From Brevibacillus brevis (GTDB lineage: Bacteria > Bacillota > Bacilli > Brevibacillales > Brevibacillaceae): 64,000 nt of DNA. Position 1 is the stretch's first letter, and each line of letters opens with the position of its first letter. Under the pieces are notes generated by a model, which saw only the letters and a program-made list of their open reading frames with translations, searched no databases and had not been told where the DNA came from. Positions 49,605 through 55,146 of the stretch are shown in pieces. Position numbers and translations under genes: made by a program. The DNA lies in the NCBI RefSeq assembly GCF_022026395.1, contig NZ_CP041767.1:3876501-3940500 (forward strand), read 5' to 3'.

Positions 49605-50081
49605 ATGCAGGACTTTTCTTTTGTATGGAATCAGTACGACTTGATTCGCGGAATGTTTTTGGCGAGATTGACGGAAATAACCGAGGAAGAAGCAGATGTG
49701 GTTCCAGTTGGCTTTAAAAACAACATTCGCTGGAATATTGGCCATATTCTTCTGACACAAGATTACTTGCTCTTCGGACCAGAAGGAATGAAATGTCCTC
49801 CGCATTACGCAGCCATGTTCGCTCCAGGAACCAAACCTGCTGATTGGCAAAAAGAAGCACCTTCCCTCGAAACCTTAGCTGCCGAGCTAAAAGAACAGCA
49901 TGTGCGTATCAAAGAAGAATTTCACTCCCGCTTGAATGATCCATTGCCAAAACCGTTTGAGCTAGGAGACAAAGGCACTATGCATACTTATGGGGAAATG
50001 ATGGTCTTCACTCTTTTCCATGAAGGAATGCACATCGGATGTATTTCGTCATTGCGAAAAGCAATCGCGGCTGCTAAATAA
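49605..50081 (+). CDS. DinB-family four-helix protein
   Basis: A 158-residue DinB/YfiT-like protein, a fold that often binds a divalent metal through three histidines. Here candidates are in NIRWNIGHILL and FHEGMHIG. Some relatives are bacillithiol S-transferases, but the reaction cannot be assigned. GAAGGGCAGGG precedes the ATG. Confidence 0.85.
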   Translation: MQDFSFVWNQYDLIRGMFLARLTEITEEEADVVPVGFKNNIRWNIGHILLTQDYLLFGPEGMKCPPHYAAMFAPGTKPADWQKEAPSLETLAAELKEQHVRIKEEFHSRLNDPLPKPFELGDKGTMHTYGEMMVFTLFHEGMHIGCISSLRKAIAAAK

Positions 50082-50092
50082 GGAAAATCAGA

Positions 50093-50126
50093 CAAAAACG
50101 CGGGATCGTTTATCCGCGTTTTTCTT
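50093..50126 (+). terminator. Terminator after the DinB-family gene
   Basis: AAAAACGCGG and CCGCGTTTTT form a ten-pair stem around a ten-base loop, followed by a T-rich run. Confidence 0.88.
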
Positions 50127-50143
50127 TTGCCTGCCAAATCTTC

Positions 50144-50174
50144 AAAAATGAAAACCGCTCCAATGAGGAGCGGT
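50144..50174 (-). terminator. Terminator of the candidate small RNA (and of phoH read-through)
   Basis: ACCGCTCC and GGAGCGGT form a perfect eight-pair stem with a five-base loop; on the minus strand TTTTCATTTTT follows. Confidence 0.8.
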
Positions 50175-50211
50175 CCTTGTCGAGCCCGAATTGCTTATGG
50201 GGTTCTACCGG

Positions 50212-50304
50212 TTATTCTCTTTGGCTCTTCAACCTCCGTCGTAGAGAAAAGTAGCTAAAGGAATCGGTGTATCTCCATACGACTTTCGTCGATTGCTTGA
50301 TCAT
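50212..50304 (-). CDS. Possible 30-residue basic peptide inside the small-RNA locus
   Basis: ATG 50304 opens a 30-codon frame beginning MIKQSTKVVWRYTDSF and ending in a basic tail rich in Arg and Lys. The ribosome site is weak (GTGG six bases upstream). Composition looks protein-like, yet the frame lies inside a region with strong RNA pairing. I cannot decide between coding and non-coding. Confidence 0.25.
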   Translation of the reverse strand: MIKQSTKVVWRYTDSFSYFSLRRRLKSQRE

Positions 50305-50378
50305 GATTATCCACGGATCTTCGCCTCCTGCAAGGCCTTTCGCCGTTTACTCACATGAATCAACGGGCTCGACAAAAA

Positions 50379-50407
50379 TAGTATGACCTCTTCGCAGTTT
50401 TTCATAC
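50379..50407 (-). promoter_or_regulatory. SigG-type promoter directly after phoH
   Basis: GTATG (50403-50407), 17 bases, CATACTA (50379-50385) on the minus strand. This matches the SigG pattern gnATR-N17/18-cATnnTA at every conserved position. It starts eight bases after the phoH stop. Confidence 0.65.
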
Positions 50408-50414
50408 ATCCTCT

Positions 50415-51749
50415 TTACAATAAATCTGCGGCCAGCTGTGCGAGCACACTCCGTTCGCCTTTTTCCAACTGAATATGTCCAGCCAGCTTTTGGTCTTTAA
50501 ATACTTCGACCACGTAGGTTAAACCGTTGTTGCTCTCATCCAGATACGGATGATCAATCTGCTCAGGATCACCCATTAACACAATTTTCGAGCCGTCCCC
50601 CACCCTCGTCAGGATCGTCTTCACTTCATGCTTTGTCAAGTTCTGGGCTTCGTCAATGATAATAAATTGTTCAGGGATGGAGCGCCCGCGAATATACGTC
50701 AAAGCTTCCACCTGCAAACTTCCCATGCCTGCCAAAATTTTATCCAAATCACCTGGGCGTTTTGTGTTGAATAAATATTCCAAATTATCATAAATCGGTT
50801 GCATCCACGGCCGAAGCTTTTCTTCTTTTTCGCCGGGCAAATAACCGATGTCTTTTCCAAGCGGAACGATAGGTCTTGCTACTAACAGTTTTTTGTATTT
50901 TTGCTGGTCCTCAATTTGCAGCAGGCCCGCTGCTAATGCCAGCAAGGTTTTTCCTGTACCGGCCTTACCGGTCATGGTTACTAAAGGGATATCATCTCGT
51001 AGCAGCAATTCGGTTGCCATCCGTTGCTGCACGTTGCGGGCTCGGATGCCCCAAATCGGATCATCATCTGAGATAAGCATTTCTAACATTTTTCCGTCCG
51101 GGTCGACTTTTCCAATCGCTGAAATAGATGGGTTACATTCGTCCTTCAGCACTAAAAATTGATGAGGATAAAAGCGATAGCGCGGAAAACAGGAGGCCAG
51201 CTGCAGTTTTCTTGTCGCATAGTAAGTCTTGATGATGTCGGATGCTACCATCATCTTCTGATACCCCGGGTATATACTGGAGAACTCTCCCACAACTCGA
51301 TCCGAAAGAAAATCTTCTGCGGAAATATTCAATGCATCAGCCTTGACTCTCATGAGAGCATCCTTACTTACCAAAATGACTGGTCTTGGCTGTGGTTTTC
51401 CATTTTCCTCCTCTTGTAAGTTTAGTGCAACCGCCAAAATGCGGTTGTCATTACTCATTTCCGTGAATTGTTTTTGAAGGCGGTGGAAAGAGGAATGATT
51501 CAGTTCCACCCGAAACAACCCACCCGTTTCAAGGGTAATGCCAGTGTGCAATTGCCCCAGCTCACGAAAACTGTCAAAGAGCCGAGATACGTACCGAGCA
51601 TTGCGGCCAATTTCATCCATGTACCGCTTTTTGGAATCGATTTCTTCCAATACGACAGCTGGTATGACGATTTCGTTGTCAGCGAAGGAAAACATCGCCC
51701 TTGGATCTTGCAGGAGTACGTTGGTGTCCAGTACGTAGATTTTCTTCAA
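50415..51749 (-). CDS. PhoH-family ATPase with N-terminal PIN domain (YlaK-like)
   Basis: A 444-residue fusion of a PIN-type ribonuclease domain (about residues 1-150; YVLDTNVLLQDPRAM with the metal-binding Asp) and a PhoH ATPase (about 240-440; Walker A GKAGTGKTLLALA, Walker B FIIIDEAQNL). Related PhoH2 proteins act as RNA helicase-nucleases. B. subtilis ylaK is the positional equivalent, next to ylaJ and near ylaH/typA. The start is TTG 51749, seven bases after AGGAGG. It is divergent from the YlaJ-type lipoprotein gene. Confidence 0.9.
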   Translation of the reverse strand: MKKIYVLDTNVLLQDPRAMFSFADNEIVIPAVVLEEIDSKKRYMDEIGRNARYVSRLFDSFRELGQLHTGITLETGGLFRVELNHSSFHRLQKQFTEMSNDNRILAVALNLQEEENGKPQPRPVILVSKDALMRVKADALNISAEDFLSDRVVGEFSSIYPGYQKMMVASDIIKTYYATRKLQLASCFPRYRFYPHQFLVLKDECNPSISAIGKVDPDGKMLEMLISDDDPIWGIRARNVQQRMATELLLRDDIPLVTMTGKAGTGKTLLALAAGLLQIEDQQKYKKLLVARPIVPLGKDIGYLPGEKEEKLRPWMQPIYDNLEYLFNTKRPGDLDKILAGMGSLQVEALTYIRGRSIPEQFIIIDEAQNLTKHEVKTILTRVGDGSKIVLMGDPEQIDHPYLDESNNGLTYVVEVFKDQKLAGHIQLEKGERSVLAQLAADLL

Positions 51750-51901: not shown

Positions 51902-51958
51902 CTTGTAACCCTGCCCTCCTCATGAAAGGAAGGCAATACTGGGAAAGGGAGAATGCCT

Positions 51959-52558
51959 GTGAAACGGATCATGATCTACTGCCTCGGTTTTAGCTTGTTG
52001 CTTACAGCATGTATGTCAGGCAATAAACCCCCGGCGAATCAGGCTGCACAACAGCCGAAGCATGCCAATCATACTCAGCGCGTTCAGCAAACTGCTCCTG
52101 AGCCTGCTTATAATCAATCTTCCCAAGCCACCGCTGATCGCCTCGCCCAACTGGCAACACGTGTGAAAAGGGTACACAGTGCCACTGCTGTGGTATTGGG
52201 CAAATATGCGGTAGTCGGTATTACAGTGGACCCGAATCTGGATCGCCCAGAAGTTGGCGTCATAAAGTATACGGTTGCGGAAGCTCTGAAAGAAGACCCC
52301 CAAGGAGCGAATGCTGTCGTAACTGCAGACCCTGCTATCGTACAGCGGTTACGGGAAATGAGAGATGATATTCGTCGCGGCCATCCTGTTGCCGGAATTA
52401 CGGAAGAGTTGGCGGACATCGTAGGTCGGATCATTCCCCAGTTGCCGCGCAGTGTGCAGCCTCGCGAAGAAACCCCTTCTCAAGTAAAAGAAAAACGCAT
52501 GCACAAAGAACCGCAGGGACAAAACAAAATCAACGCAAATCGTACAGGATCACCATAA
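51959..52558 (+). CDS. ylaJ: YhcN/YlaJ-family sporulation lipoprotein
   Basis: A 199-residue lipoprotein with signal peptide and lipobox LLTAC. The YhcN/YlaJ domain (about residues 60-165) contains LATRVKRVHSATAVVLGKYAVVGITVD and a conserved ADPAIVQRLREMRDDI. Such proteins are placed in the inner spore membrane and needed for efficient germination in Bacillus. I choose GTG 51959, seven bases after GGGAG; ATG 51953 directly abuts that site. Its position opposite the phoH-like gene fits ylaJ. Confidence 0.85.
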   Translation: MKRIMIYCLGFSLLLTACMSGNKPPANQAAQQPKHANHTQRVQQTAPEPAYNQSSQATADRLAQLATRVKRVHSATAVVLGKYAVVGITVDPNLDRPEVGVIKYTVAEALKEDPQGANAVVTADPAIVQRLREMRDDIRRGHPVAGITEELADIVGRIIPQLPRSVQPREETPSQVKEKRMHKEPQGQNKINANRTGSP

Positions 52559-54964: not shown

Positions 54965-55146
54965 CAAAAAAGCCCCCTTTCCTCTGAAAGAAGGCTTTGT
55001 TTACGTCACCGTAAGCAAATCCTTCTCATCTTTCAGAGTTTGATAACTCTGCAGGAATTAGCACCATTATCTCCCTGTTAAAATACAGGTGATTGGTTGC
55101 CGGGCATCATCGGGCCAGTCCCTCCGCCGCTCTGGATAAGAAGATT
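54965..55146 (-). promoter_or_regulatory. SAM-I riboswitch (S box) with terminator, upstream of metI-metC
   Basis: The minus strand has the complete S-box core: CTTATCCAGAGCGGCGGAGG, then GGCCCGATGATGCCCGGCAA, GGTGCTAATTCC and the closing GATGAGAAGG, which pairs with CTTCTTATC. A terminator follows at 54965-54998 (AAAGCCTTCTTTC with GAAAGGGGGCTTT, then T run). Binding of SAM ends transcription before metI. Confidence 0.97.

Follow-up and report, generated by a model that had tools for sequence, protein, structure and literature searches.

Predicted forespore small RNA family with twin GGAGG hairpins, found downstream of a phoH-like gene in Brevibacillaceae

Known forespore RNAs and the locus downstream of phoH

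To our knowledge, few forespore RNAs have been described, and we found none with a settled mechanism; in the literature that we searched, no sporulation RNA is reported for Brevibacillaceae. Among the closest described systems, CsfG, catalogued in Rfam as RF00516 ('ylbH', opposite strand), is a spore-specific sRNA that is controlled by SigF and SigG and widely conserved in spore formers, according to its description (PMC3574147). A second report presents Bvs196/S547 as a 294-nt Bacillus forespore sRNA from the hinT-ecsA region that is driven by SigF and SigG, is specific to the forespore and has a reported effect on spore resistance (PMC9147052).

Here we analyze a 64,000-nt stretch of Brevibacillus brevis DNA (GCF_022026395.1, NZ_CP041767.1; hereafter, the window), in which an earlier note had proposed a SigG-dependent structured RNA on the minus strand, at 50144-50407. 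The sequence elements on which that proposal was built, namely, a SigG-pattern promoter after the phoH-like gene, a ten-base stem that closes the 5' and 3' ends on each other by exact complementarity, and an eight-pair terminator behind it, are all present (Table 1); a terminator scan extends the terminator stem to 11 pairs, with the eight as its core. Seven bases separate the phoH-like stop codon from the GTATG element of the promoter, and there is no terminator between the phoH-like gene and the RNA, so that phoH transcripts probably run through the RNA and, probably, are ended by the same terminator. In the family copies that were read, the terminator lies directly behind the closing stem P1, and promoter, RNA and terminator thus form one compact unit.

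Like Bvs196/S547, which has a SigF/SigG-type promoter, the RNA appears to be an independently transcribed unit with its promoter a few nucleotides before the RNA, a strong fold and an intrinsic terminator, but it lies downstream of a phoH-like gene rather than in the hinT-ecsA locus, has a different architecture and has paralogues elsewhere. It resembles CsfG, which is spore-specific under SigF and SigG, in its SigG-type promoter and predicted expression, and differs from it in carrying GGAGG as a loop-proximal element, in contrast to the CU-rich loops seen in the CsfG of the same genome.

Transcription from this promoter would start at or next to 50373 and end at about 50144, yielding an RNA of roughly 230 nt; as the promoter is of the SigG type, the RNA is predicted to be made in the forespore, late in sporulation. 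A strict GHATR-N17/18-CATNHTA pattern, whose -10 element ends 5-6 nt upstream of P1, is found in 50 of the 58 copies, and most of the other eight have near matches to it. The spacing is fixed in orthologues and paralogues alike, and the flanks of the paralogues otherwise have nothing in common. In this genome, two genes for alpha/beta-type SASPs are preceded by a promoter of the same form (GAATA-17-CATACTA and GCATG-18-CATATTA). Given the conserved promoter and the compact unit, control by SigG and timing in the forespore are predicted with high likelihood, so that the link to SigG made in the earlier note holds as far as sequence allows.

Elsewhere in the window, the phoH-like gene adjoins a gene at 51953-52558 (plus strand) for a lipoprotein that, by eye, resembles the YhcN/YlaJ spore lipoprotein family, an arrangement like that of B. 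subtilis ylaJ-ylaK. An ordinary SAM riboswitch (RF00162, 92 bits) is located at 55023-55142 on the minus strand, near two genes resembling trans-sulfuration enzymes of the cystathionine synthase/lyase type.

Table 1. Features of the RNA locus and its surroundings in window coordinates
Feature	Position	Strand	Basis or remark
phoH-like gene	50415..51749	-	ORF list; conserved upstream neighbour of the orthologous RNA copy, outside the RNA itself
Stop codon TAA of the phoH-like gene	50417-50415	-	read from the sequence
SigG-type promoter, GTATG-N17-CATACTA	50379..50407	-	sequence; conserved in family copies
GTATG element of the promoter	50407-50403	-	N17 spacer next, with CATACTA at 50385-50379
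Structured RNA proper, 195 nt	50179..50373	-	first to last base of P1; fold, covariance models, covariation
Closing stem P1, 5' arm, GUCGAGCCCG	50364..50373	-	pairs with 50179-50188; covariation
Closing stem P1, 3' arm, CGGGCUCGAC	50179..50188	-	exact complement of the 5' arm; covariation
Arm P2, stem UUGAUUCAUG / CAUGAUCAA	50297..50363	-	bears the first GGAGG hairpin; stem position kept
Apical hairpin 1, GCCUU-loop-GGAGGC	50323..50336	-	GGAGG at 50328-50324
Possible 19-codon ORF (GTG..TAG)	50255..50314	-	9 nt after the first GGAGG; start codon kept, coding doubtful
P3 hairpin, CGAC-GAAA-GUCG (GNRA)	50280..50291	-	within the genus, a feature of the phoH-linked copies
Arm P4, ACCGAUUCCUUUAG paired with CCAAAGAGAAUAACCGGU	50207..50268	-	bears the second GGAGG hairpin; covariation
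Apical hairpin 2, CUCU-loop-GGAG(G)	50233..50246	-	GGAGG at 50237-50233
Intrinsic terminator with T tract	50144..50177	-	terminator scan; stem-loop 50177-50151, T tract to about 50144

Conserved structure, identity and distribution

The segment 50374-50144, terminator included, folds at -87.7 kcal/mol, compared with -61.2 +/- 5.0 for shuffled sequences (z -5.3, with none of the 200 shuffles as good), and the 195-nt RNA folded alone yields a z of -4.0. Nearly all of the 55 unique copies that were folded individually adopt one plan, in which P1 is combined with arm P2, tipped by a GYCUU-loop-GGAGGC-type hairpin, and arm P4, tipped by a CUYU-loop-GGAG hairpin. When 27 diverse copies are aligned, 88.6% of the cells are paired versus 84.7% after shuffling, and compensatory changes occur in 37 cells versus 12.4 expected; neither value was reached in 500 shuffles. 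Sliding the partner by one column lowers the pairing to about 50%, a control that leans in favour of the structure because the counted structure itself came from folding the aligned copies. This bias does not extend to the compensatory changes of P1: in the 27 copies, 97.4% of the P1 cells are paired and 6 of the 10 pairs show such changes, so that the conservation of pairing across relatives, on which the earlier note had made its proposal depend, is indeed observed. In P4 (helix 5), both sides changed in 4 of the 6 pairs, with CUCUUU/AAAGAG giving way to CACUGC/GCA..GUG, UCAUU/AAUGA and others, and the P2 stem retains its position with different sequences, in relatives of the GGUGAUC / GAUCACC types. 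The pairing and compensatory statistics indicate that the RNA structure is under selection. All coordinates of the earlier note that were checked proved correct, and its sole overstatement concerns the GNRA hairpin (P3), which it counted among the ordered elements. This hairpin is present in the window but is not a defining feature: relatives have AGUA, AUUG, AUCA or CUUG in the loop, and the paralogues lack the hairpin.

No Rfam family matched the RNA, in line with the initial impression that no known class fits. RF00516 had no match anywhere in the window at the gathering score and was not among the matches of a relaxed search of 50080-50460, in which those to ctRNA_p42d, TD-2 and mir-244, all far below the cut-off, were rejected as due to the terminator or chance. 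Identity with CsfG was likewise rejected because the true CsfG of the same genome lies elsewhere (G000:C1:3705685-3705863); CsfG scores above the cut-off, at a separate locus, in 38 of the same 39 genomes. Within CsfG of this family, a segment of about 60 nt (CCGCGGAGAAGACUUACGUUUCCCCAUAAGCUCUUCCUCCGGUUUCUCCUCUCCCAUAAUUGAA) is unchanged in all ten genomes read, and the segment CCCCAUAAGC is shared with the phoH-linked RNA of the window.

By DNA search, each of the 26 genus genomes has a matching region. From these matches, a covariance model (R1) was built, which detected the RNA in 38 of the 39 genomes of the family and revealed paralogues, with a second copy in most genomes of the genus and five credible copies in one other genome. 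A second model (R2), built from 27 diverse copies, found 61 copies in 38 of the 39 genomes of the order, which, as searched, comprises this single family with 7 genera. Nothing credible was detected by covariance searches in about 360 genomes of the class outside the family (samples of 300 and 399). The combined pattern CATAMTA-N4-7-RTCGAGC-N160-190-GCTCGAY was found in 22 of 399 class genomes, all from this family, compared to one match for the reversed control pattern. A weak match in one further genome (G218, E 0.008) was rejected as a coding-like stretch with neither promoter nor closing stem, and an origin from mobile elements was rejected because the phage and plasmid collections contained no match to the RNA. 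As far as searched, the RNA family is confined to Brevibacillaceae. The order at this locus thus exceeds chance, as the earlier note held, judging by the shuffles, the presence in every genome of the genus and the family-only pattern; furthermore, covariation, the fixed distance of the promoter in paralogues and the terminator behind the closing stem bear out its view of an independently made structured RNA. The multi-copy family, the twin GGAGG hairpins and the dispensable GNRA loop go beyond that note.

In each of the seven genera, at least one genome read has an RNA copy directly downstream of phoH; deep-diverged phoH-linked copies in three genomes (G026, G028 and G029) were missed by the model. 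In one genome (G035), the copy at the phoH locus was lost, with a terminator following phoH directly, and no RNA copy was detectable anywhere in this genome although CsfG was kept. The family most probably descends from a gene that was linked to phoH in the ancestor, was later duplicated and, in one case, was lost. The second copy in the B. brevis genome (G000:C1:1540023-1540208, minus strand) has its own SigG-type promoter and terminator and closely follows a lipoprotein-like gene that is read in the same direction. Another genome carries a tandem pair of copies about 330 bases apart (G027:C1:821973-822677), both of which have a promoter and a terminator of their own.

The conserved structure, the promoter, the copies and the lack of an Rfam class make this a new family of RNAs, specific to the lineage and produced independently, apparently of a known kind, the forespore sRNAs, with an unusual twin-GGAGG design. 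Accordingly, the reading that we prefer, with a probability of about 0.7, is that of a gene for a small non-coding RNA, with predicted forespore expression from a SigG-type promoter, that belongs to a Brevibacillaceae family with a structure of two GGAGG arms; the RNA would be stable and act in trans.

Twin GGAGG hairpins and alternative explanations

GGAGG is present in both arms in all 58 copies examined, followed by GA with 0-2 bases in between; in the three deep phoH-locus copies of G026, G028 and G029, arm 2 carries AAGGU instead. In hairpins 1 and 2 (helices 2 and 6), the strand opposite GGAGG varies one-sidedly, from C-G to U-G and from U-G to C-G, and no pair changed on both sides, in contrast to P1 and P4, where both sides change together. 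Because GGAGG stays fixed while its partner varies, the constraint exceeds the needs of pairing and points to recognition of the GGAGG sequence, so that we take the two hairpins to be the probable working surface of the RNA. In the predicted fold, GGAGG is partly paired (its GGA is unpaired with a mean probability of about 0.0-0.4) and therefore would have to open to bind. GGAGG is complementary to CACCUCC at the 3' end of 16S rRNA, and GGAGG with the GA behind it resembles the complement of that end.

Several other explanations can be weighed against these features. A role as a trans-acting antisense sRNA, in which the unpaired GAUGUGCC after the first GGAGG and the ACCCCAUAAGCA segment before P1 would pair with particular forespore mRNAs and the GGAGG hairpins would be structural, is possible but doubtful: both unpaired stretches are strongly conserved in alignment A2, whereas the ACCCCAUAAGCA segment is not conserved in paralogues and other genera, and the fold leaves little single-stranded sequence. 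We consider it rather unlikely that the RNA has a dual function or is a mini-mRNA, with the first GGAGG as the ribosome-binding site of an ORF of 7-20 codons translated in the forespore. A GTG, ATG or TTG start at suitable spacing is found in 56 of the 58 copies, with changes at this position staying within start codons, and almost every copy keeps the frame open. However, the start is absent in two copies, pN/pS in the ORF frame (0.75 and 0.70) is not clearly below that in the other frames, the peptides differ in length and do not align between genera, and frameshifting indels are found near the end in close relatives; a conserved peptide was rejected because there is no clear coding signal. 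That the locus is nothing more than a conserved 3' end to the phoH-like transcript, or order that arose by chance, is extremely improbable. The probable read-through from phoH would suit the former, but it is contradicted by the copies located away from phoH, which keep the same promoter, fold and terminator, and chance is ruled out by the shuffles and covariation.

Two protein- or RNA-binding roles of GGAGG are also to be considered. One would be sequestration of CsfG, the second forespore sRNA, with the RNA as a sponge: CsfG has conserved CU-rich loops in which CCUCC is found. CsfG is present in 38 of the same 39 genomes, and its UCUUCCUCCGG and CUCCUCUCCC are invariant in those read; nevertheless, this appears quite improbable, given that joint folding of pairs from the same genome yields about 0 to -3 kcal/mol, weaker than the shuffled controls (-6 to -10), a result that is not final because joint folding is blind to kissing loops. 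Slightly less probable still is a CsrA-binding decoy, in which a CsrA dimer would bridge the twin GGA hairpins. CsrA is encoded in the genome and the seven copies examined contain 3-5 GGA each, but the GGAs of both hairpins are mostly paired in the predicted fold rather than exposed in loops, all five GGAGG bases and the GA are constrained, beyond what CsrA needs, and the motif AUGAGGUG of the Bacillus analogue contains no GGA. CsrA decoys of the CsrB/RsmZ type combine several GGA-bearing hairpins in one RNA, whereas the present RNA has just two conserved GGAGG hairpins, in which GGA is for the most part paired and the conserved sequence is longer.

Possible mechanism and comparison with Bvs196/S547

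For the family of forespore-type RNAs that we favour, we can propose a mechanism only tentatively. The ends of the RNA would close on each other through P1 and hold two arms, each tipped by a GGAGG hairpin, and the pair of GGAGG(N)GA elements would serve as a Shine-Dalgarno-like bait for an RNA containing CCUCC. The first-choice partner would be the 16S anti-Shine-Dalgarno sequence of 30S subunits, and the bound bait would reduce translation or put it on hold during spore maturation, so that pairing with a CCUCC-bearing RNA might damp or store translation late in the forespore. This mechanism gains support from Bvs196/S547, which is unrelated by sequence and also repeats a GAGGUG-containing motif; against it, sequestration of ribosomes by an RNA would require a very high abundance. 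A 2024 study reports that translation is silenced twice in the course of B. subtilis sporulation (PMC11339384), an observation that fits the proposed mechanism and proves nothing.

The region upstream of hinT in 80 Bacillaceae genomes contains 2-7 copies of AAAUGAGGUGUUUGUCAAAGACA in most cases, with 237 instances in total; these repeats are not mentioned in the accessible part of the Bvs196/S547 report (PMC9147052). The copies lie about 150-900 bases upstream of hinT at irregular spacing and differ in number between genera, and in some Bacillaceae (L181, L201 and L219) a second repeated element, AAGGGGAUGGU(U/A)..., is found between the GAGGUG motifs. No Rfam match was obtained in the three hinT-upstream loci scanned. 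The GAGGUG-containing AAAUGAGGUGUUUGUCAAAGACA loosely resembles the twin UGGAGGU.GAUGUGCCAAAGAG elements of the Brevibacillaceae RNA. In most copies, the GAGGUG...CAAAGAC motif aligns best on the second GGAGG element, in arm 2, and about a third of 18 copies rank among the top few of 60 shuffles, so that the resemblance is one to the eye and statistically not firm; the family genomes contain only scattered matches to the Bacillus motif, with 2 mismatches. Because R2 has no significant match in 21 hinT loci and the motif similarity is not decisive, homology was rejected, and Bvs196/S547 is treated as the nearest known analogue rather than a homologue. A broader scenario, which we consider unlikely, is that forespore RNAs of different spore-former families, independently or jointly, would bind 30S subunits through repeated SD-like elements, such as the two GGAGG hairpins here and the 2-7 GAGGUG motifs of Bacillus S547, and shut down or store ribosomes before dormancy, in effect an RNA-based device for parking ribosomes.

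The present analysis adds a whole predicted family of forespore-type RNAs, whose structure and promoter are clear and whose two recognition elements do not change. The small size of the RNA and the detection of two copies in B. brevis make tests by deletion feasible. Should the GGAGG hairpins contact ribosomes or other RNAs of the forespore, the shut-off of translation before dormancy would become directly testable.
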